From a virus: a DNA stretch of 24,206 nt. Below the pieces are notes generated by a model. The model was given only the letters and a program-made list of their open reading frames with translations, did not search any database and was not told the origin of the DNA. Within the stretch, counting starts at the first letter, position 1. The number at the start of each line of letters is the position of its first letter. Shown one piece after another: positions 6,660 through 19,739 of the stretch. The translations under genes and the position numbers were made by a program. The DNA lies in the IMG/VR virus record IMGVR_UViG_3300007539_000219, positions 1 through 24,206 of that record. One strand, 5' to 3'.

Positions 6660-7864
6660 AAGTAGACAAGAAGAAAAGAGAAGTGGCACTCCAGGCTATA
6701 ACTGCTTGGGAGGCTGCTGATAAGAAGGCTACTGTAGAACTTGCGACAGGTATGGGTAAAACCTTTCTGTCCTTGGACTGCATGGCTAAAATGCGTAAAG
6801 GTTCAAACGTTGTGTTTCTCGCAGAGACAGCACAGCGTGAACATGATCTAATGGTTGACATAGAAAAGTACAATAAGCTTTTCGGTGTTGACATATTAAG
6901 TCATGTGAATCTTGAGTTTGCATGCTATCAATCAGCATGTAAGTGGGTCAAGAAGACTTTTGATCTTGCAGTATGCGATGAGATACATGACTCTATGAGT
7001 CCAGTATATGTACAGTTCTATAAGAACAACAAGTGTAAGAGTATACTTGGTCTCAGCGCAACAGTAAAGTCAGAAAGAACTTATGTAATAGATGGTGTAG
7101 AGGTAAGCAAGGAGATTCTTCTTGATGATATCGCACCAGTATGTTTTACATATGATGTAGGTGATGGTCAACGTGAAGGTACAAGCAGAAAGCTTGACAT
7201 ACATGTTATCTATCATAGGCTTGACACAGACAAGAAGACTGTTGATGGAGGCTCTAAAGCCAATAGATTCAAGACAACTGAGGCACGTGCCTATAAGTAT
7301 CTTGACGATCTGTTCTGGCAAGGAGTGTACAGCAACAAGGATTTTCTTGTAAAGAGTGCAGCAATGAAACGTTCAAAGTTATTGTATAGTCTACCGTCAA
7401 AGGTAGATGCTGTGAAGAATATACTCAAGACTGTAAAGGGCAAGAGTATCATATTCAACAATGATCTGAACATACTTGAGGACATAACTCCTCACATTGT
7501 AAGATCTGCAAAGAAAGGTGAGACCAAGAAGCAGAGAGATACTATGAACTTCGAGACCCGTAACAATTTTGACAAGGGTGACATCGATGTGATAGGTTCT
7601 TTCAAGATGCTGAAGCAAGGTGCTAATCTTAAAGGTGCAGATAATGTCATCATTATGAGCTACTACAGTTCCTCATTGGATATGATCCAACGTATAGGAA
7701 GACTGCGTAAGAATGGTAACAAGAAGGGTAAGGTATTTATCCTTGTGACCATAGGTACACAGGAAGAGAAGTGGTTCAACAAGATGACAGAAAGCATTCC
7801 GATGCAAGAGTTCAATGTAGTTCCGCATTTGAATATTGATTCGCTTATTAAGAAAGCGGTATAA
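6656..7864 (+). CDS. Superfamily 2 DNA helicase
   Basis: ATP-dependent helicase or translocase of the SF2 (ResIII/DEAD-like) type. It has Walker A ATGMGKT (30-36), Walker B DEIH (108-111), motif III SAT (134-136), a motif V region (FKMLKQGANLKGADNVII) and motif VI QRIGRLRK (345-352) with its arginine fingers. At 402 residues it has the two RecA-like lobes and little else. The role is probably branch migration, fork remodelling or R-loop removal, as for T4 UvsW, but the substrate is not evident. It is translationally coupled to the upstream 38-aa gene, and a 61-base gap follows. Confidence 0.88.
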   Translation: MKVDKKKREVALQAITAWEAADKKATVELATGMGKTFLSLDCMAKMRKGSNVVFLAETAQREHDLMVDIEKYNKLFGVDILSHVNLEFACYQSACKWVKKTFDLAVCDEIHDSMSPVYVQFYKNNKCKSILGLSATVKSERTYVIDGVEVSKEILLDDIAPVCFTYDVGDGQREGTSRKLDIHVIYHRLDTDKKTVDGGSKANRFKTTEARAYKYLDDLFWQGVYSNKDFLVKSAAMKRSKLLYSLPSKVDAVKNILKTVKGKSIIFNNDLNILEDITPHIVRSAKKGETKKQRDTMNFETRNNFDKGDIDVIGSFKMLKQGANLKGADNVIIMSYYSSSLDMIQRIGRLRKNGNKKGKVFILVTIGTQEEKWFNKMTESIPMQEFNVVPHLNIDSLIKKAV

Positions 7865-7865
7865 G

Positions 7866-7880
7866 ATCAATACTATTGAT
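7866..7880. promoter_or_regulatory. Perfect 15-base palindrome, candidate operator
   Basis: ATCAATA-C-TATTGAT is a perfect 7+1+7 inverted repeat two bases after the helicase stop. It lies in one of the few gaps (7865-7925) in the replication block. No T-run follows it, so a terminator is unlikely. It may be a regulator-binding site for the unit starting at 7926. No promoter boxes could be placed with confidence. Confidence 0.3.
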
Positions 7881-7925
7881 ATGATAATTCTAATTGGAAT
7901 ATAAAACTAAAATGAAAAGAATCTA

Positions 7926-8489
7926 ATGGAAAGAATAGGTGTAAATGTGAAGTTGATGAGTGATTATGGACTTACACCGAACGAAGTATTTTATCTAAAG
8001 ATGCTTAGTGCAGGTTCTGACGACATGATCGGAAATATGGTGAACAGAGATTATCTACACAATATAGGTGTTATCGATGAAGATGACAATATAACTGATA
8101 AGGGTATCAAGTTTGTAACCGAAATATTCTTTGAGATACAGCAGGCGAAGATACCTCAGTCTACTGAGGAGATCGTGAAGCTATGTTCTGAGTTCAGAGA
8201 TTACTTTCCGAAAGGAGTCAAGACTAACAATCATCCTGTTAGAGGGAATCTTACTAATATCATTCGCAAGATGCGAAAGTTTAAGCGAGAGTTCGACTAT
8301 ACGGATGAGATAATATTGGCAGCTACTAAGAAATATGTCACAGATAAAGCAAAGGAAGGCTACTCATTTATGAAAATAGCAGAGTATCTTATCTACAAGG
8401 ATAATAACTCAACACTTGCTTCATTATGTGACGCAATAATAGAAGATGGAGGAGAACAAGATAGAGTCAAGTGGGGAAGGCATATTTGA
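7926..8489 (+). CDS. Hypothetical protein, possible helicase-loader or replication accessory, 187 aa
   Basis: The N-terminus (LMSDYGLTPNEVFYLKML, then YLHNIGVIDEDDNITDKG) looks like a winged-helix-type domain. The C-terminal half is basic and helical (NIIRKMRKFKREFDYTDE, KYVTDKAKEGYSFMKIAEYLIY), separated by an HPVRGN turn. It overlaps the DnaB-type helicase gene by 44 bases, which argues for a joint role; loaders and organisers often sit there. No DnaC or gp59 signature is visible, so the proposed role rests on context. Confidence 0.7.
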   Translation: MERIGVNVKLMSDYGLTPNEVFYLKMLSAGSDDMIGNMVNRDYLHNIGVIDEDDNITDKGIKFVTEIFFEIQQAKIPQSTEEIVKLCSEFRDYFPKGVKTNNHPVRGNLTNIIRKMRKFKREFDYTDEIILAATKKYVTDKAKEGYSFMKIAEYLIYKDNNSTLASLCDAIIEDGGEQDRVKWGRHI

Positions 8490-11512: not shown

Positions 11513-12448
11513 ATGCCTGTTAACGTACGAAAAAACCTGAGTGTTGATAAGATACTTGAAAGAACTTCAGAACTTGATATCTATAGGAGATACATCGGCA
11601 ATGTAATGCCATTGAAGATGATATCGTCTCCTCTTCGTGAGGATGACCATACACCTTCCTTCAGACTCTATTATGGTAACAACGGTAGTTTAAGGTTTAT
11701 TGATTACGGTACAGGCATGCGAGGTAATGTCTTTGATTATGTCAAAGCATTATATCCATACTTAACTTTTGGTGAGCTGCTCGAAAGAGTATGGGAGGAC
11801 ATGCAATGTGTGTCTCTCCCATCGCTCCCAATGGTTAAAAAACGTCCAGTAAGGACACAGTTTCCACATTTGCTTGTCAACAAGAGAAAGCCTACGGCTG
11901 AAGATGTTGAGCTATGGCAACAGTGGGGAATCACACCTGATACTTTGAATCATTTCAGAGTGGAACCGATATCTAAATTCTGGGTAGATAGGTCATTATT
12001 TAAATGTAAGACCCTCTCTTATTCCTATGATCTATTCACAGAGTTCAAGATATACAGACCATTTGAGAAGATAATGAAGTTTGTTGCAGGAGGTTTGTCT
12101 CTACAAGGGTACAAATTACTACCGCAAAACGGTGAGGTATGTGTCATACAGAAATCTTACAAGGACGTTATGCTCATGCATGAGTTCGGTTATCCATCAT
12201 TTGCACCACAGGCTGAATCAGTCGATGTGCCTGAAGATGTTATGGAAAGTATTCTTAAGAGATTCGATAAAGTTGTAATATGGGGTGACCCAGATGATGC
12301 TGGTAAAGCATTCATGCAACGACATGAAGATCTCTACGGTATATCATCTGTAATGAACTATGGTGATACCAAGGATATAACCGACTGTTGTAAAGAGCAT
12401 GGTAAGGAATACGCTAAACGTATGACAGATAAGCTGTTGGGTATCTGA
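11513..12448 (+). CDS. DnaG-like primase with degenerate zinc-binding and TOPRIM motifs
   Basis: Primase making RNA primers. The N-terminal region has the CHC2-like pattern SPLREDDHTPSF (39-50), then YGTGMRGNVFDYVKAL, but the zinc-binding Cys/His ligands are missing. The TOPRIM region shows VVIWGDPDDAG (254-264) with the metal-binding Asp259 and Asp261 intact and a later DTKDITD. The conserved TOPRIM Glu (EGYMD in DnaG) reads KSYKD here (Lys214). The length of 311 aa is much shorter than bacterial DnaG, and no helicase-binding domain is evident. The degenerate motifs look like a phage-specific lineage; activity is likely but unproven. Confidence 0.78.
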   Translation: MPVNVRKNLSVDKILERTSELDIYRRYIGNVMPLKMISSPLREDDHTPSFRLYYGNNGSLRFIDYGTGMRGNVFDYVKALYPYLTFGELLERVWEDMQCVSLPSLPMVKKRPVRTQFPHLLVNKRKPTAEDVELWQQWGITPDTLNHFRVEPISKFWVDRSLFKCKTLSYSYDLFTEFKIYRPFEKIMKFVAGGLSLQGYKLLPQNGEVCVIQKSYKDVMLMHEFGYPSFAPQAESVDVPEDVMESILKRFDKVVIWGDPDDAGKAFMQRHEDLYGISSVMNYGDTKDITDCCKEHGKEYAKRMTDKLLGI

Positions 12449-12468: not shown

Positions 12469-12816
12469 ATGGCTAATCGTAATAGACGCGCAGGTCATTC
12501 GTGGGAGAGAGAGTGTGTAAAGATACTCGTTGAGTTCTTTCCAGATGTTGTTACTTCACGTGCAGAATCAAGAAATAGAGACGACCAAAAGGTTGACCTC
12601 TGTTATACTGGATTTCTGAATGTGCAGTGCAAGACATTGAAAGACAGAGTGAACTACGTTGAAGTTCTGTCTGAAATGCCTGACGAAGAGGGTCAAATAA
12701 ATGTCATCTTTGATAAGAAGACACGCAAGACCCCGAAAGGTAGATTTGTAACAGAAGGGATGTATGTTCACTTAAAATTGGAAGATTTTGTTGAACTGAT
12801 CCGTAAATCATGTTAA
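12469..12816 (+). CDS. Holliday-junction-resolvase-like PD-(D/E)XK nuclease, 115 aa
   Basis: Small nuclease probably cutting branched DNA after replication and recombination. The pattern is Hjc-like: N-terminal helix HSWERECVKILVEFFPD with Glu13/Glu15, TSRAESRNRDDQKVDL with the catalytic Asp43, then NVQCK (Gln53-x-Lys55). Gln replaces the usual Glu of ExK, a known variation in this superfamily. The short length suits a dimeric resolvase. The gene follows primase by 20 bases and overlaps the secreted 3D-domain gene by 7 bases. A different DNA-repair substrate cannot be excluded. Confidence 0.7.
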   Translation: MANRNRRAGHSWERECVKILVEFFPDVVTSRAESRNRDDQKVDLCYTGFLNVQCKTLKDRVNYVEVLSEMPDEEGQINVIFDKKTRKTPKGRFVTEGMYVHLKLEDFVELIRKSC

Positions 12817-13172
12817 AACTATCAATATTAACTTTAAGTATCCTGTTGAGTATCGATCAAACAGTAACGGTAACGTGTTACCAAGCTACTGTAGCGCAAT
12901 GCGACAGTGATCCATTCACAACAGCATTCGGATACAAGATAGATCCAAAAGATCCTATGTCCCATAGGTATATTGCTATCAGTAGAGATCTTGAAACATA
13001 CTTTTCACCAGGTGATTCTGTTCTTGTAACAGGAACTGGTGTTTATGACGGTATGTGGATGGTAGCTGATAGAATGAACCGAAGATGGACAAATAGGATT
13101 GACCTACTTGTTGGTTATGACTCCTATGTTGACAAGTTTATGGGTGTGACCATTAAGAAACATGTTTGGTGA
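12810..13172 (+). CDS. Exported 3D-domain (RlpA-like double-psi barrel) protein
   Basis: Residues 1-~19 (MLKLSILTLSILLSIDQTV) look like a cleavable signal peptide. The mature part starts with VTCYQATVAQCDSDPFTTAFG and ends in VADRMNRRWTNRIDLLVG, the conserved pattern of 3D/RlpA-type double-psi beta-barrels found in peptidoglycan-acting proteins. The Asp residues of the 3D signature (Asp in VADRM and RIDLL) are present. It probably acts on the cell wall outside the cytoplasm, perhaps at lysis. It is out of place between replication genes and the ubiquitin-like cassette. It overlaps both neighbours by about 10 bases. Confidence 0.7.
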   Translation: MLKLSILTLSILLSIDQTVTVTCYQATVAQCDSDPFTTAFGYKIDPKDPMSHRYIAISRDLETYFSPGDSVLVTGTGVYDGMWMVADRMNRRWTNRIDLLVGYDSYVDKFMGVTIKKHVW

Positions 13173-13449: not shown

Positions 13450-13884
13450 ATGTCGAGAACGATTTATATCAAATCGGAAGGTAACGCAAGACCGTTGAAA
13501 GTAACTGACTTTGAAGGATTTACATTCGGTGAACTGAAAGATCATGTTCAAGAAGTAAACTTTGAGAACTCAAATGTCATTATTCACTCAACGAAGACGA
13601 CTCTATTTGACGATTCGTCACTTATCCCATCGGAAGGCGATGTGATTCTTCTTGTTGTTCCTCAAAAGATGAAAGCAGGTAATGATGAAACTCAGGTTTC
13701 TGATACTGATGAGTTTAGCGAACTTATGCAGTGCTACAATGATCTTGTAGATGCTTCAGCTAATTTTAACGAAGCACTTGAAGCGGTAGGAAAAATTATT
13801 GTAGAAGATGAAGAATCTATCGAAGTAGGTAACACTACACTTGCTGACATTAACAGAGCGTTCAGAAGTTTTCTGAACCGATAA
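13450..13884 (+). CDS. Ubiquitin-like beta-grasp protein with C-terminal extension
   Basis: Candidate protein modifier. Residues 1-77 read as a beta-grasp: strand RTIYIKSE, strand RPLKVTDF, helix FTFGELKDHVQ, strand NVIIHSTKTTL, then LIPSEGDVILLVVPQKMKAG. Domain length and the Gly at 77 match the place where ubiquitin ends. The pattern of a final strand followed by P-x-K-x-K-x-G resembles Prok_Ub/PRTRC protein C-type sequences, recalled and not searched. A 67-residue acidic helical extension follows (SDTDEFSELMQCYNDL...), so any exposed Gly would need cleavage, which the downstream JAB protease could do. The E2, JAB and E1 genes follow. The fold is inferred from pattern; conjugation is not shown. 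Confidence 0.7.
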   Translation: MSRTIYIKSEGNARPLKVTDFEGFTFGELKDHVQEVNFENSNVIIHSTKTTLFDDSSLIPSEGDVILLVVPQKMKAGNDETQVSDTDEFSELMQCYNDLVDASANFNEALEAVGKIIVEDEESIEVGNTTLADINRAFRSFLNR

Positions 13885-13891
13885 TCATATT

Positions 13892-13920
13892 AAGGGTCTC
13901 TCTATTGCAGGGAGACCCTT
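13892..13920 (+). terminator. Hairpin between the Ubl gene and the E2-JAB-E1 genes
   Basis: AAGGGTCTCT (13892-13901) pairs with GGAGACCCTT (13911-13920) over 10 positions with one G.T wobble, around a 9-base loop. It starts seven bases after the Ubl stop. The following ATTAATATCTT is T-rich but not a clean U-run, so it may be a partial terminator or an mRNA-stabilising stem. Either would make Ubl transcripts more abundant than enzyme transcripts. Confidence 0.7.
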
Positions 13921-13937
13921 ATTAATATCTTAAAAAT

Positions 13938-15065
13938 ATGCTTTTGAATATATTAATAAGAAACAAAAAGTTTGGAGCTGCTCTGATCAGTACAGCTTCT
14001 ATGCGTGAAACTTTTGAAGGTGAGGATTTTATAACCAATATGTTTGAAGATGATGATGTTGTAGATCGATCTTCGCTTGCAGCTGAGCCTATTCTTAAGA
14101 ATATTAATGATCTTCTTGAAGCTCATTATGATATGACAGGATCTCTTGATAACATTGATATCAAGATGAGTAGTAGTTATATGAATCGTGATGATCTTAC
14201 AGATCTTGAATTGTATTATGATGTTTATGTAAAACATGGTGATATAGAGATCAAAAATGCTCGTAACGAATGTACTCTGCTAAAAGGTGTTTACACAAAA
14301 TCTTCATTTGTGTCTACTGTTAAAAGAACCAAGATGAGGAAGATCCATATGTTCAGAGATACTTACAATGAGATAGAGCTACATAGCAGATATATGCATT
14401 CTCATGTACCACATTTACAGGTAACCAGAATTGGTGATCAGGTGTTTAAAGACATGTGTCTTGGTACTGCCAGTATAGTAAGATTCAGAAGAGGTAAGAA
14501 ATATCAAGATATGTTCATGTATCTTGCTTATCTTGATAGTTTTATCAAATGGGAAAGTCTTGATGGTGGACCATATCATAAGATATGTGAGGCATATAAT
14601 GTTGCATCAGACTCAAAATTAGATCTTGATAATGTAGATGTAACTGATGTTATTTATAATAATGCAGATAATGTAACTGCTTATATAGATAGTGAAGGTA
14701 ATCTTTCAGCATCTTCTGATATTCTTAATCACATTGACGATGATAGATTGAAATGTGTAAACTATAGAGGTTATACTATGAAAGAGGACGGTTGGCATGT
14801 AGATTATTTATTAGATTCTGATGCTCCTACAATCTATAATTCCGTTTATGTTTTTAGAGGCAAACCTTTAAAGATCAGAATTATTCCATATGATAATTCT
14901 CTAATGAAAAAGTATGCAAAGTCATGCTATAGCCAAGTACCTAAAAAACTTGGTGACAAATTGGTTAAAAAGATAAATCAAATATTAAAATTATACTATG
15001 AACCAAAACAACAAGAAGTACCCAACCTACAATCACAAGGGGAAGGGCAAGCTTATAGTAACTAA
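13938..15065 (+). CDS. Candidate E2-like ubiquitin-conjugating protein
   Basis: Proposed carrier of the Ubl thioester. The key region is about 151-180: RYMHSHVPHL, then FKDMCLGTASI, giving His154/His156 followed 18-20 residues later by Cys174 in CLG. Prokaryotic E2/UBC-fold families (including PRTRC protein B, Prok-E2_D) carry a similar His-rich turn and catalytic Cys, as do eukaryotic E2s (HPN...G-x-CL). The surrounding 375 residues, far longer than a bare UBC fold, are not recognised. The gene stands between the Ubl and JAB genes, exactly where an E2 is found in Bil and PRTRC cassettes, and overlaps the JAB gene by 68 bases. The assignment rests on this motif plus context. Confidence 0.5.
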   Translation: MLLNILIRNKKFGAALISTASMRETFEGEDFITNMFEDDDVVDRSSLAAEPILKNINDLLEAHYDMTGSLDNIDIKMSSSYMNRDDLTDLELYYDVYVKHGDIEIKNARNECTLLKGVYTKSSFVSTVKRTKMRKIHMFRDTYNEIELHSRYMHSHVPHLQVTRIGDQVFKDMCLGTASIVRFRRGKKYQDMFMYLAYLDSFIKWESLDGGPYHKICEAYNVASDSKLDLDNVDVTDVIYNNADNVTAYIDSEGNLSASSDILNHIDDDRLKCVNYRGYTMKEDGWHVDYLLDSDAPTIYNSVYVFRGKPLKIRIIPYDNSLMKKYAKSCYSQVPKKLGDKLVKKINQILKLYYEPKQQEVPNLQSQGEGQAYSN

Positions 15066-16065
15066 AGAAGTTAAGAAAAAGATCGACCAACTTCATAGTG
15101 AAATAGGCAATACAGAATGGTGTGGATTTATCTTTTATGAGAAGATAGCTGGTACTATCAGTGATCCAGATACTTATGTAGCTAAGACAACTGATGTTTA
15201 TCTAATGGGTATCGGTACTCACAGCTATACTGAAAGTGAAAATCATTCTGATGATATCCTCAATATGGTAGACCGTGTGCCAGCTTATATGGAGAACCGT
15301 TACGGTCTTATCCATACGCATCATACAATGGATACGTTCTTTTCAGGTACAGATATTCAAGAATTGCATGACAATGCAGCTAACTATTCTTACTATCTGT
15401 CTCTTATTGTCAACATCAAAGAGAAATATTCAGCAAAGATCGCCAAGCTTGTAGAAGTAAAGGGCGCATCATTTGATCTTGACGAAGAAGATGAGGAGAC
15501 AGTATCTATGGAGCTTCCTGTAGAGCATATCCTTATGCAGTTTGACCTGGATGTAATTATTGAAGAAGATGCTGAATGTAATGATAAGATCATTACAGAA
15601 AGGATAGCTGAGATAAATAAACGAAAGGAAGAAGAAAAGGCGAAGTTTATTAAGTCTAAGATGAAAGTCACATCACATTCTGATGTAGAAGACAATAAGT
15701 GGTTCAATGCATATCGTCAGCAGTCTTTATGGGACCCTGCAATGTATGATGTAACACAGAATGATGCTGAAGACTTCTTATGTAGTCTTTACATTGATCC
15801 GTTTGTGGTAAACACACAGTTTGGTACATTTCCTACTTTGGAGGCATGTGTTAAACAAGAAGAAATACCTCCACTTACAAGTGAAATAATAGCTGATGAA
15901 GCAATTGATTTCTTTGGTGCTGATAAAGCAAGGACAGGACTTCTTAAAACTGCAGAGGTAACTCGTAAGCATATGACATTCATTGGTGACAATATGAGTC
16001 AGATGTATGATCTTATTACTGAAGCAGCAGAATCTTTTAACCAAAATAACGAGTATTCACTATGA
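14998..16065 (+). CDS. JAB/JAMM metalloprotease (deubiquitinase-like)
   Basis: Zinc metalloprotease expected to remove or process the ubiquitin-like modifier. The JAMM motif is complete: Glu40 in NTEWCGFIFY, then His106-Thr-His108, seven residues, Ser116-x2-Asp119 (LIHTHHTMDTFFSGTDIQEL). After the ~170-residue protease domain comes a charged segment (RIAEINKRKEEEKAKF) and a helical C-terminal region of about 130 residues of unknown role that may bind the E2 or E1. There is no ATG between 14998 and the conserved part, so the overlap with the E2-like gene is real. The E1 gene follows in an ATGA overlap. Identification is firm; the substrate is inferred from the neighbours. Confidence 0.87.
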   Translation: MNQNNKKYPTYNHKGKGKLIVTKEVKKKIDQLHSEIGNTEWCGFIFYEKIAGTISDPDTYVAKTTDVYLMGIGTHSYTESENHSDDILNMVDRVPAYMENRYGLIHTHHTMDTFFSGTDIQELHDNAANYSYYLSLIVNIKEKYSAKIAKLVEVKGASFDLDEEDEETVSMELPVEHILMQFDLDVIIEEDAECNDKIITERIAEINKRKEEEKAKFIKSKMKVTSHSDVEDNKWFNAYRQQSLWDPAMYDVTQNDAEDFLCSLYIDPFVVNTQFGTFPTLEACVKQEEIPPLTSEIIADEAIDFFGADKARTGLLKTAEVTRKHMTFIGDNMSQMYDLITEAAESFNQNNEYSL

Positions 16066-16748
16066 TCGAGACCATTAAGGAATCTCATACGAGGTTCAGT
16101 AGTGTCCCTTGGTACGGTAATACAAGAGAACTGACTATCGGTGGTTTAGGTACTATCGGTAGTTGGTTATCTCTTCTTATTGCCAGAACAGGTGACCACG
16201 AAATACTTCTATATGACAATGATACTATTGAGAAGGTAAACTATTCAGGTCAATTCTTTTCTAAAAATCAGCTTGAGAAAACCAAAGTAGGTTCAGCAGC
16301 TGAGAATATTTTGAATTTTACTGAGATCAATGACTTTAATGTTCACACTTTCAATTCTAAGTTTGATGAAAACACTTATGTTTCTAATGTAACGTTCTCC
16401 TGTTTCGATAATATGGAAGCCAGGAAAGCAATGTTTGATGCATGGTGTAAGAATGAAGAAAGAGAGTTGTTCATTGACGGTAGAATGAGTATCGAAAGTT
16501 ATGAAGTGTTCACTGTAAAACGTGGACAGGAGGAGCGTTATCGAAAGACGCTCTTTGATGACTCTGAGGTAGGAGAACAGATATGTTCTTTGAAGAATAC
16601 ATCTCATACAGGTGCATTGATCGCAGCAAGAATGGTGACAGCGTTCACTAATTATCTTGCTAATGAATCAATGGAGCTTGCTATAAGAGATACATCTTTC
16701 TATTTCAGAGAAGATATGGAAATGCAACTCATAAATATGAAAAAGTAA
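16062..16748 (+). CDS. E1-like/ThiF-family adenylating enzyme
   Basis: Proposed activator of the Ubl C-terminus by adenylation. A Rossmann ATP-binding loop GGLGTIG (27-33), the Asp pair YDND (52/54), Lys75 in KTKVG and FDNMEAR (Asp116, Arg121) match ThiF/MoeB/E1 enzymes. The usual NxxRQ reads NYSGQ (60-64), losing the Arg. Cys175 in ICSLKNTSH, just before the helix ALIAARMVTAF, is the likely thioester Cys. At 228 aa it is a minimal E1 without a UFD domain. It overlaps the JAB gene in ATGA and the next gene by one base, so the E2-JAB-E1 run is one translationally coupled unit. Confidence 0.83.
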   Translation: MIETIKESHTRFSSVPWYGNTRELTIGGLGTIGSWLSLLIARTGDHEILLYDNDTIEKVNYSGQFFSKNQLEKTKVGSAAENILNFTEINDFNVHTFNSKFDENTYVSNVTFSCFDNMEARKAMFDAWCKNEERELFIDGRMSIESYEVFTVKRGQEERYRKTLFDDSEVGEQICSLKNTSHTGALIAARMVTAFTNYLANESMELAIRDTSFYFREDMEMQLINMKK

Positions 16749-17203
16749 TGGTTGTTGAAATAGCTAAAAAAGATATAAAATCTTACTTCGAGTCACTATC
16801 TGACCGAGAGTATTCTATGCAAAGAATACCTTATGTTGAAAATGAAACTCTTGTTCCTTTACTCTATGCTATAACGGGATCAAATCTTACATGTGATCAT
16901 TATAGAAACGGTCTTAGAGATATTGCTAATTCTCGACTCAGTAGATTTTTTATTTGCTGTATTGATTATAAAAGAGTAAAAGAAATAAGACAGAAAGCGA
17001 TAGAGCTTTTGTTGAAAGATGATAATGCATCTATTATAATTGATGATGTTGTTGAAATAGAAGTAGAAGACAATACTACATATCATAATCTTACATTTCC
17101 TGAAAAGAAAGAGATGATGAATGATGTGAAAATTGCTCTGCCATCAATGATAAGAAATGCTATTGATTTTGAGAAAAAAATGAATGTAAATATTGTTCAA
17201 TAA
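16748..17203 (+). CDS. Unknown protein coupled to the E1 gene, 151 aa
   Basis: It shares one base with the E1 stop (TAATGG) and one with the exonuclease start. The sequence is helical, with a Tyr- and Cys-containing middle (NLTCDHYRNGLRDI, then SRLSRFFICCIDYKRVKEI), an Ile/Val/Asp/Glu-rich beta-like stretch (ASIIIDDVVEIEVEDNT) and a C-terminal helix. No membrane segment or catalytic motif. It could be a fifth component or a target of the Ubl cassette, or an accessory to the nuclease behind it. Confidence 0.65.
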   Translation: MVVEIAKKDIKSYFESLSDREYSMQRIPYVENETLVPLLYAITGSNLTCDHYRNGLRDIANSRLSRFFICCIDYKRVKEIRQKAIELLLKDDNASIIIDDVVEIEVEDNTTYHNLTFPEKKEMMNDVKIALPSMIRNAIDFEKKMNVNIVQ

Positions 17204-18282
17204 TGGAAAGAGATAATTATTTTGAAAGAAAGGCAGTGTCACGTTCACTGCTTTCTGAATTGGTTCGTCATCCATTACGAGCCAAAGCAATGCTTGATGG
17301 TGTTGCAGAAAAAGTAGAGAGTGAAGCTATGACATTCGGTAGTGCGTTTGACTCATTGATGTTCGACACAGCAACTGAGTTTACTTCTAAGTACAAGATT
17401 CGTCAGTATGAGAACCCTTGGACAGACAGACGTAAGAACACAGGTAAGTTTGCATATGCTCTTGAGCAGATAATGCAGGAAACACTTGCTAATGATGTAA
17501 CATCTGCTACGTTTGCTGCTACAGAAGATATTGAGACAATGTTTATGCAAGCATATACACAGTCAGGTATCAAAAGTCCCAAAGTATATGATCTGGTCGC
17601 TGAGTTTGTAGAACTCGGTGGTAGAGAGTGGGTAAAAGAATCCATGATGGCAAATGCATTTACCATGATATCTCAAGATGACTACAATAAGCTTGCAGCA
17701 ATGAAAGCCAATCTTATCAACGATGAGTATGTAGGACATCTATTTGTAATGGATGTGCCTGAAACTCATAGTGTTAGAAACGGTGATGTTGAAATCATTT
17801 ATCAGATGGATATTGATTTTCATATTGAAGGTGTAAAAGCCAAAGCTCTTCCTGATATTGTGAAGATAGATCATGCAGCCAAGGTTATAAATATATATGA
17901 CCTTAAGACCACATCTTCCTATGACCAGAATGTAATGGAGAGTATTGTAAAGTTCGGTTATGATCTTCAGGCAGCATGGTATACCGTAGCTCTTAATGCG
18001 CTTACGATGCAAGGTGAAAAGTATGAAGGTTATACAGTAGCAAAAGAGTTTGGTTTTATATTCATTGATACTAACATGATGAATGCTCCTATACATGTTA
18101 TGATACCAGAGAATGATCTTTTGTGTGCTATAAACGGTGGTAACCGTTATGGTAGACCACGTAAAGGTGTGTTTCAGTTACTTAATGAATATATGTGGCA
18201 TGTTGAAACTGATAAATGGGATTACCCTAGAGATTATTATGAGAATGACGGTTACATAAAGACTGATATATATGATAGCTGA
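17203..18282 (+). CDS. RecB/Cas4-type PD-(D/E)XK exonuclease
   Basis: Probable 5'-3' DNA exonuclease of phage recombination. MTFGSAFDSLMF (43-54) is the N-terminal conserved segment of the family, and the nuclease core has LPDIV (Asp218), fourteen residues, then YDLKTT (Asp233-x-Lys235). LQAAWY (255-260) supplies the QxxxY motif of RecB-family nucleases. At 359 aa it is in the size range of RecE/PDDEXK-12 phage exonucleases. With Sak4 and SSB earlier in the window it completes a recombination set. It lacks a helicase domain. Confidence 0.78.
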   Translation: MERDNYFERKAVSRSLLSELVRHPLRAKAMLDGVAEKVESEAMTFGSAFDSLMFDTATEFTSKYKIRQYENPWTDRRKNTGKFAYALEQIMQETLANDVTSATFAATEDIETMFMQAYTQSGIKSPKVYDLVAEFVELGGREWVKESMMANAFTMISQDDYNKLAAMKANLINDEYVGHLFVMDVPETHSVRNGDVEIIYQMDIDFHIEGVKAKALPDIVKIDHAAKVINIYDLKTTSSYDQNVMESIVKFGYDLQAAWYTVALNALTMQGEKYEGYTVAKEFGFIFIDTNMMNAPIHVMIPENDLLCAINGGNRYGRPRKGVFQLLNEYMWHVETDKWDYPRDYYENDGYIKTDIYDS

Positions 18283-19060
18283 ACCACTGATAGATGTAGT
18301 AACATTTACAGGCTTTCACGTTCAATTCAGTGTGAAAGATGTGGATGTTACAGACATTCTTTCTCAAGATGGAACAGGGATTCTTGAGATACGAAAAGGA
18401 GATAAGCGACTTTTCTATCGCGGTGATATGATATATGTAAGAGAGTCAGGTTGGTATCAACTGAATCGTATTGATCTTATGCGTCAAGATAAAGGCTTGC
18501 GTAAATACAGAGGTCTTATGATGGAACGTAGTGATACTTCATTGCTTGTTCTTCCAGTATTCGGAGGGACAAGACATGATGTATCTTTTACTGACCACTT
18601 ACTTAATGCATATCTGCATCGTGAAGACCATGAAGATGGTTCTATATGGATACTTATGAAGCGTCCTTACAATCCTAATTCTCAATATGAGAATGCGATA
18701 CATTTCTTTGAATCCAACGATTACTTTATAAAGAAGGAAACGCTTGGCGATCAGTTTGAAATGATCACAATGGATATTCCTGAACACTTTGAGACAGAAC
18801 TTATACTGATAAAGCAGGGTAAGTTCTCAGAGCTGGGAAACTTCCATAAGCAAAGGATATATGAGTTTCATAATATCAGAGATAAATATAATAAGATACG
18901 TCTCGAACTTGAGAAGAGTGAGGTACTGAGAGAAAAGATGGAGAATGAATATGACATTCAGATTCCAAAAGGTAGCGAGCTTAGATCAAGAATCAATGAT
19001 GACAGAGAGACATTCTATAACAAACTTATAATCAATGAGCACTCAACGAGTATTGAGTAA
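18272..19060 (+). CDS. Hypothetical protein with C-terminal coiled coil, 262 aa
   Basis: The N-terminal two thirds look alpha-beta, with segments such as VTFTGFHVQFSVKDVDVTDI and DMIYVRESGWYQLNRIDLM. The C-terminal quarter (KQRIYEFHNIRDKYNKIR, LELEKSEVLREKMENEY) is charged and coiled-coil-like. No family is recognised. It overlaps the exonuclease gene by 11 bases and the uracil-DNA glycosylase gene by 26 bases, suggesting a DNA-processing role through context alone. Confidence 0.65.
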   Translation: MIAEPLIDVVTFTGFHVQFSVKDVDVTDILSQDGTGILEIRKGDKRLFYRGDMIYVRESGWYQLNRIDLMRQDKGLRKYRGLMMERSDTSLLVLPVFGGTRHDVSFTDHLLNAYLHREDHEDGSIWILMKRPYNPNSQYENAIHFFESNDYFIKKETLGDQFEMITMDIPEHFETELILIKQGKFSELGNFHKQRIYEFHNIRDKYNKIRLELEKSEVLREKMENEYDIQIPKGSELRSRINDDRETFYNKLIINEHSTSIE

Positions 19061-19739
19061 TTTATTTGGTGAAGGTTGGTTCAATGCGATGGGAACATAT
19101 CTGATGTCACAGGATTTTGCAAACCTCGGTCACTGGTTGATCGAGGAACGCAAGACTAATACGGTTTATCCTGTGCAACAGAATGTTTTCAAAGCATTCA
19201 AGCTTACACCATACGAAGATGTCAAAGTTGTATTCTTAGGTCTTGATCCTTATATACGTAAGAATCAGGCTATAGGTCTTTCATTCGGTGTTTATACAGA
19301 GATGGGTGTCAAAGTACCACCATCTCTTAAAACTATCATTAAAGAGCTTGAGAGCGACCTTGATGTATTGTGTCTTGAGTTTGATCATTCTTTAGAAGGG
19401 TGGGCAAAGCAAGGTGTATTGATGCTTAATACAGCATTGACAGTTGTAGAAGGTCAGACCAATTCTCATTTAAAAGCATGGAATCCTTTTACCATGCAAG
19501 TAATAGATGCTATCAATCGTAAGAACGATAATGTAGTATACATTCTTCTTGGTAAAACTGCACAGGGGTATGAGAAGTATCTTGATGCTGATGCAACTAT
19601 AGTTATAAAAGCACCACATCCTGCAGCGGAAGCATATGCTGGAGGTAAGGCTGGCTTTTATGGAAGCAAGATATTCAGTAAGTGTAATAGCATACTGTAT
19701 ATGCTTGAGAAAGAAGAGATAAACTGGAATATACAATAA
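19035..19739 (+). CDS. Family 1 uracil-DNA glycosylase variant
   Basis: Base-excision enzyme of the UNG family, which removes uracil from DNA. The family order is visible: GLDPYIRKNQAIGLSF (69-84) for GQDPYHgpgqAhGLsF, LEGWAKQGVLMLNTALTV (120-137) with the base-binding Asn132, and APHPAAEAY (193-201) for HPSPLS with catalytic His195. Water-activating Asp71 is kept, but Gln63 and His67 of E. coli numbering are Leu and Ile, and SPLS is replaced. The overall length is normal. These changes may alter specificity or reduce activity. It could also protect or recognise modified bases. Family assignment is secure; uracil cleavage is not. Confidence 0.85.
   Translation: MSTQRVLSNLFGEGWFNAMGTYLMSQDFANLGHWLIEERKTNTVYPVQQNVFKAFKLTPYEDVKVVFLGLDPYIRKNQAIGLSFGVYTEMGVKVPPSLKTIIKELESDLDVLCLEFDHSLEGWAKQGVLMLNTALTVVEGQTNSHLKAWNPFTMQVIDAINRKNDNVVYILLGKTAQGYEKYLDADATIVIKAPHPAAEAYAGGKAGFYGSKIFSKCNSILYMLEKEEINWNIQ

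Follow-up and report, generated by a model that had tools for sequence, protein, structure and literature searches.

A phage four-gene cassette that probably encodes a self-contained ubiquitin-like conjugation pathway, compared with the Bil and PRTRC systems

In the bacterial Bil defence operon, the ubiquitin-like protein (Ubl) BilA has two domains and is trimmed by BilC at a Gly, the E2 carries a CEHH motif in which the Cys comes first, and the E1 combines two adenylation domains with a Cys domain (PMC11354881). Lambdoid phage tail clusters include a Ubl and a JAB protease (TAPI/TAPK), with a conserved Gly and without an E1 or E2 (PMC1779556). Genes of the same families are carried in PRTRC plasmids, and in the nine plasmids used here for profile comparisons the order is ParB-E-C-F-B-A-ThiF. 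Here we describe a cassette in the viral record IMGVR_UViG_3300007539_000219 from IMG/VR, of which the 24,206 nucleotides (nt) analysed are referred to as the window. The cassette, at positions 13450–16748, consists of genes for a Ubl, a candidate E2, a JAB protease and an E1-like enzyme, and is probably a ubiquitin-like conjugation pathway complete in itself, belonging to crAss-like phages. An earlier reading made from the sequence only had likened it to Bil and PRTRC; the likeness of gene order stands, but the cassette belongs to neither system.

A check of the open reading frames (ORFs) confirmed four consecutive ORFs on the + strand. The candidate E2 and JAB ORFs share 68 nt and the JAB and E1 ORFs share 4 nt, in agreement with the overlap of the last three genes described in the sequence-only reading. 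The features of the cassette are as follows.

13450..13884, + strand: Ubl precursor gene, 144 amino acids (aa) (AlphaFold2 model, Foldseek)
13672..13680, + strand: K-A-G, residues 75–77 of the Ubl, predicted mature C-terminus (alignment, model disorder at 77–80)
13891..13921, + strand: 13-pair hairpin in the Ubl/E2 gap, where most relatives have a terminator-like hairpin (free energy dG -21.2 kcal/mol, z -4.6)
13938..15065, + strand: candidate E2, 375 aa (motif, position, secondary-structure order)
14397..14405, + strand: H-S-H, residues 154–156 of the candidate E2, second His invariant (homologue alignment)
14457..14465, + strand: C-L-G, residues 174–176, containing the candidate catalytic Cys (invariant in 65/65)
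14998..16065, + strand: JAB/JAMM metalloprotease, 355 aa (Prok-JAB, E-value 6.5e-4; alignment)
15313..15354, + strand: JAMM motif HTH-x7-SGTD (kept in 78/78 uninterrupted homologues)
16062..16748, + strand: E1-like adenylating enzyme, 228 aa, one ThiF domain (ThiF, E-value 7.8e-17)
16584..16586, + strand: candidate E1 catalytic Cys175, in C-S-L-K-N-T (invariant in 43 aligned E1s)

Conservation of the gene order in related phages had been proposed as a check on the cassette. Hidden Markov models were started from the first eleven phages and refined by iteration across the loci. With these, the Ubl-E2-JAB-E1 order was found in 87 of 94 loci, a count that takes in a few near-duplicates and two loci with an interrupted JAB gene. 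This conservation is far beyond chance. The remaining seven loci were either on truncated contigs or gave no hit to the E2 profile, and in two of those without a hit (L087 and L092) an ORF with HPH...CLG lies at the E2 place. Among 70 distinct loci, the E2 and JAB genes overlap by at least 20 nt in 46, and the JAB and E1 genes overlap in 48. Comparison of the window with its three nearest relatives revealed fewer non-synonymous than synonymous changes in all four genes, indicating purifying selection.

The carriers of the conserved order, which include dozens of phages only distantly related to one another, were nearly all crAss-like phages (crAss001, DAC15) and Fpv phages. A tblastn search of 50,697 phage records found E1 matches in 74 records and JAB matches in 74, with an identical tally of organisms, namely crAss-like phages of Bacteroides (Steigviridae) and the Fpv phages of Flavobacterium psychrophilum. 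A profile scan of IMG/VR yielded 223 relatives, from which 80 loci were retained. A crAss-type major capsid protein was present in 11 of 12 long relatives, and that on the contig of the nearest long relative (L030) was 44% identical to the one from cr108_1. When 84,980 bacterial and archaeal genomes were scanned, relatives were found on two small contigs of metagenome-assembled genomes only. On this evidence the E1 family is almost confined to viruses. With no near plasmid relative found either, a recent transfer from bacteria was rejected.

The product of the first gene was predicted to be a beta-grasp protein in the sequence-only reading, and its structure model agrees. The AlphaFold2 model, built with 67 homologues, had a mean predicted local distance difference test (pLDDT) score of 86.4, with a high-confidence beta-grasp at residues 1–71. 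Its elements (strands at 3–9, 16–21, 41–45, 50–52 and 65–71, and a helix at 26–32) follow the strand/helix order of that fold, and Foldseek matched it to the DWNN domain of RBBP6, DIX domains, and ubiquitin and its variants (E 5e-4 to 1e-2). No meaningful match to this protein was found in Pfam, NCBIfam or PADLOC, and a PDB sequence search with the Ubl profile and a Pfam scan of all Ubl family members returned chance matches only, scattered in the latter case.

The window Ubl is made up of a single beta-grasp domain (residues 1–77) and a 67-residue helical tail, and a low-confidence or disordered segment at 77–80, directly after K-A-G, precedes the tail helices. Across the family the beta-grasp terminates in K-x-[KR]-[SA]-G, with the Gly present in at least 90% of alignment rows. 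Fourteen distinct Ubl sequences stop 1–5 residues past this Gly (for example, ...FPNKVKSGK followed by the stop), while others extend 21 to approximately 200 residues beyond it. The Ubl of the window and that of locus L015 are identical at 73 of the first 77 residues, and differ in the presence or absence of the 67-residue module exactly after the Gly. Stops at the Gly, tails of variable length and an insertion or deletion at the Gly are together the anatomy of a protease-trimmed ubiquitin precursor. Judging from these sequences, the Ubl looks like a precursor whose C-terminal Gly could be reached by the predicted processing. In cr106_1 (L006, 5377–6580), the Ubl gene is split into a 92-aa Ubl ending in KSGKF, an HNH endonuclease gene and a separate ORF homologous to the extension. 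In the longer Ubls, inspection by eye suggested that the tail might be a SAP-like DNA-binding domain, but Pfam gave no support and the idea was set aside.

The position of the hairpin between the Ubl gene and the enzyme genes is kept, although the stem sequences vary between lineages. Of 65 distinct loci, 60 have a Ubl/E2 gap that folds much more stably than shuffled sequences (mean z -4.1), whereas the stretch preceding the Ubl gene does so in 10. A motif scan identified terminator-like structures in 42/52 Ubl/E2 gaps vs 7/61 of the remaining gaps in these loci (Fisher p 3e-14, a value that overstates independence because the loci are related). A conserved hairpin after the Ubl gene suggests partial termination as the simplest reading, with the result that more of the tag would be made than of the enzymes. 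The modifier, which is consumed, would then be in excess.

The 14998 product matched Prok-JAB (PF14464) below Pfam's own cut-off, and includes a complete E...HxHx7SxxD motif. The sequence-only reading had called this a perfect JAMM protease, and HxHx7SxxD is indeed intact in every uninterrupted homologue. In locus L019 (7378–8995), a group I intron (7702–8155; RF00028, 79.5 bits) splits the JAB gene directly after the JAMM HxH. The JAB gene of locus L022 (6654–8969) is split at the same codon by approximately 1.1 kb, which includes an antisense ORF (7213–7995) with LAGLIDADG-like motifs; no Rfam intron match was found in L022.

Assignment of the 16062 product as an E1/ThiF enzyme was upheld by its match to the Pfam ThiF family (PF00899). 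The nucleotide-binding glycines, D54, K75, D116 and C175 are invariant in the aligned sequences, and profile comparison pairs C175 with the CS Cys in the PSCS motif of PRTRC ThiF. Its closest PDB profiles were those of UBA5, MccB and ThiF, with PaaA also among the closest, and the best NCBIfam model for the window E1 was ThiF adenylyltransferase. The presence of MccB and PaaA in this list raises the possibility of MccB-like chemistry, in which a small peptide would be adenylated by the E1 at its C-terminus to give a nucleotide-peptide, the Ubl-like protein being only its precursor. However, what the E1 presumably acts on is no short peptide but a folded beta-grasp of approximately 77 residues, and it is accompanied by a JAMM protease and a Cys enzyme. 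We regard this explanation as very improbable.

The 13938 product was called a candidate E2 in the sequence-only reading. All 65 aligned homologues keep H156, C174 and G176. The loop that separates HSH from CLG varies, whereas a W-E-S-L-x-G-x-P-Y motif that follows CLG is conserved. The AlphaFold2 model (pLDDT 82, predicted template modelling score 0.80) has a helix, four strands, the Cys loop and further helices, which is the order of elements in the UBC fold, but that fold itself was not matched. Comparison with the viral models in BFVD using Foldseek found no known E2, only crAss-like and unnamed viral proteins. No meaningful Pfam, NCBIfam or PADLOC match was found for this product, and a PDB sequence search with the E2 profile and a Pfam scan of all members of the candidate family gave only chance matches, again scattered in the Pfam scan. 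On the basis of motif, secondary-structure order and position, it is a probable rather than a proven E2.

Taken together, these genes probably make up a pathway in which the JAMM protease would cut the precursor after K-x-[KR]-[SA]-G, exposing the Gly. The single-domain E1 would adenylate this Gly and load the Ubl on Cys175, and the candidate E2 would accept it on Cys174 and transfer it to lysines of target proteins, from which the protease may also strip the tag. The hairpin after the Ubl gene would ensure that more Ubl is produced than of the three enzymes, whose genes are translationally coupled. Several observations weigh against this interpretation. Foldseek matched the model of the candidate E2 to no solved E2 in the PDB, and the contact between its profile and that of PRTRC-B is limited to about 20 columns at the Cys and is non-significant. 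The Arg of N-x-x-R-Q in classical E1/ThiF enzymes is absent (NYSGQ in the window). Three Ubls have Ala-Ala in place of Ser-Gly (L087, 5900–6436; L090, 3841–4416; L092, 6378–6911), and the hairpin in the window, with only a weak U tract behind it, does not pass strict terminator scans. In the three loci with Ala-Ala, the E2 candidate is also very diverged.

The missing confirmation of the E2 fold also bears on a different explanation, that the Ubl is a sulfur carrier which the E1 thiocarboxylates like ThiS/MoaD for nucleotide, tRNA or DNA modification, with the second gene encoding the acceptor and the JAB protein trimming. As noted, the E1 profile resembles those of ThiF and MccB and not only that of UBA5, its best NCBIfam model points the same way, and nucleotide-metabolism and replication genes surround the cassette. 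Against this, the His and C-x-G of the E2 candidate are kept throughout, no sulfurtransferase or thiolation gene was found among the flanking genes scanned, and the order Ubl, Cys-enzyme, JAB, E1 is that of two known conjugation-type operons (PMC11354881). A sulfur carrier is therefore considered unlikely, and conjugation remains the preferred interpretation.

The sequence-only reading placed the cassette inside a replication module, and the flanking genes and their synteny across loci support this. The neighbouring features are as follows.

11513..12448, + strand: DNA primase, usual upstream neighbour (phrog_12622, E-value 2.2e-32; synteny)
16748..17203, + strand: gene Y, 151 aa, trailing the E1 gene and sharing 1 nt with it (related proteins in 37 loci)
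17203..18282, + strand: PD-(D/E)XK exonuclease, downstream neighbour (phrog_412, E-value 7.7e-27)
19035..19739, + strand: uracil-DNA glycosylase (UDG) (PF03167, E-value 2.5e-12)

In the window the primase gene lies upstream of the cassette and the exonuclease and UDG genes downstream, and genes for a DNA polymerase, helicases, Sak4, a RusA-like resolvase and a B12-dependent ribonucleotide reductase are also present. Nearly all loci have a primase gene upstream of the cassette. The entire cassette has been relocated in L085 and L086, where it adjoins the DNA polymerase gene (polA). Gene Y, whose relatives come after the E1 gene, is the fastest-evolving of the set (ratio of non-synonymous to synonymous rates, dN/dS, approximately 0.5 against L015), and could encode a target or an adaptor. 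Between the resolvase and Ubl genes, a small protein with a signal-peptide-like N-terminus is encoded at 12810–13172 (phrog_21574, E-value 2.4e-25, function unassigned), and its likeness to a secreted 3D/RlpA-type domain was seen by eye only.

The near-fixed place of the cassette between the primase gene and those for the Holliday-junction resolvase, exonuclease and UDG would fit a conjugation pathway that regulates the phage's own replication or recombination proteins. However, this place may merely mirror expression timing, and there are relatives with the same replication genes that lack the cassette and have unrelated modules in its slot. Six Crassvirales genomes were probed using the JAB profile and, for the E1, either the E1 profile or PF00899. 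Both genes were present in cr126_1 and neither was found in phi14:2, cr108_1, cr116_1, cr3_1 or cr11_1, such that E1 and JAB were co-present or co-absent across the six. In phi14:2 (L120) and cr108_1 (L117), the space between the primase and UDG genes is occupied by genes for RimK-like ATP-grasp, COOH.NH2 ligase, glutamine amidotransferase-type and amidoligase proteins, which is another amide-bond-forming module. In cr116_1 (L122, 6608–10764), rIIA and rIIB fill the cassette slot; an intron-type endonuclease gene lies inside the rIIA region.

Because the slot is filled by rIIA/rIIB or amidoligase genes in relatives, a role in host takeover or counter-defence is likelier than a core replication role. 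The swap is a lead, not proof, pointing to an exchangeable host-interaction function. We consider host takeover or counter-defence a serious candidate, if short of an even chance, and regulation of replication proteins rather doubtful. The likeliest use of the cassette, as we infer it, is the tagging of host or phage proteins, possibly for counter-defence. A narrower form of this would be countering a Bil-type defence of the host, either through removal of the host Ubl by the phage JAMM protease or with the phage Ubl as a decoy. The JAMM motif is intact throughout, and the rII genes of T4, homologues of those that can fill the slot, overcome exclusion. However, a decoy or a protease alone needs no E1 and E2 of its own, and the phage Ubl is a single beta-grasp with no PADLOC model match, leaving this use improbable.

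The crAss-like phages are among the most abundant human gut viruses. Parts of the cassette have been annotated singly, as 'thiamine biosynthesis protein', 'metalloprotease domain' or 'hypothetical protein', and together they would amount to a full ubiquitin-like pathway in a phage. A search covering open-access literature found no link between crAss-like phages and ubiquitin-like conjugation, and open-access papers on crAss001 or crAss-like genomes made no mention of ubiquitin, ThiF or a metalloprotease. If the interpretation is correct, phages are not only targets of Ubl-tagging defence but also users of Ubl tagging. As a cultured, commensal pair, crAss001 and Bacteroides intestinalis are suited to testing this.

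Compared with Bil, the phage cassette shares the order Ubl, E2, JAB, E1 (PMC11354881) and a Ubl precursor with predicted trimming by the JAB protease at a Gly. However, the phage Ubl has one beta-grasp whereas BilA has two in tandem, the HxH of the phage E2 candidate precedes the Cys (HSH...CLG) whereas BilB has the Cys-first CEHH, and the phage E1 is a single 228-aa domain whereas BilD has two adenylation domains, one inactive and one active, plus a separate Cys domain. The window E1 matched the BilD model at 2.2e-4 over about 100 residues only. The cassette is also phage-encoded, while Bil is a bacterial defence operon. Membership of Bil was rejected on the Ubl, the E2 motif and the E1 architecture.

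With PRTRC, the cassette shares the succession of Ubl, E2, JAB and E1, there represented by C, B, A and ThiF. The alignment of the two E1 profiles spans 174 columns and takes in the CS Cys (E 4e-13), the PRTRC Ubl ends in KG vs KSG in the phages, and PRTRC B has a C-x-G. The lack of a ParB-like partner remarked on in the sequence-only reading holds, as no ParB_N was found in the window or in seven related records. Prok_Ub (PF14454) did not match the window Ubl and was not among the 25 families listed for 67 Ubl members, no significant profile similarity was found between the phage Ubl and PRTRC C, and Prok-E2_D (PF14460) matched 0 of 66 E2-candidate members. The PRTRC ThiF model TIGR03736 scored 21.2 bits on the window E1 vs a cut-off of 144.75. 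Membership of PRTRC was rejected on the absence of ParB, Prok_Ub and Prok-E2_D and on this score.

Like TAPI/TAPK, the cassette is a phage-encoded combination of beta-grasp and JAB proteins with a conserved Gly, but it includes an E1 and an E2 candidate and is in the replication region rather than a tail cluster. Unlike the lambda-type tail JAB, the window JAB protein is not fused to NlpC/P60, for which it had no Pfam match. The E1-like enzyme has a single Rossmann domain as in ThiF/MoeB, UBA5 and MccB, which gave the best PDB profile matches, but its partner genes and, by inference, its acceptor are different, and the phage family is almost virus-restricted. We tentatively suggest that the cassette may represent a third, virus-specific class of complete Ubl conjugation pathways, with its own Ubl and E2 families, serving as a host-takeover or counter-defence module in an exchangeable slot.

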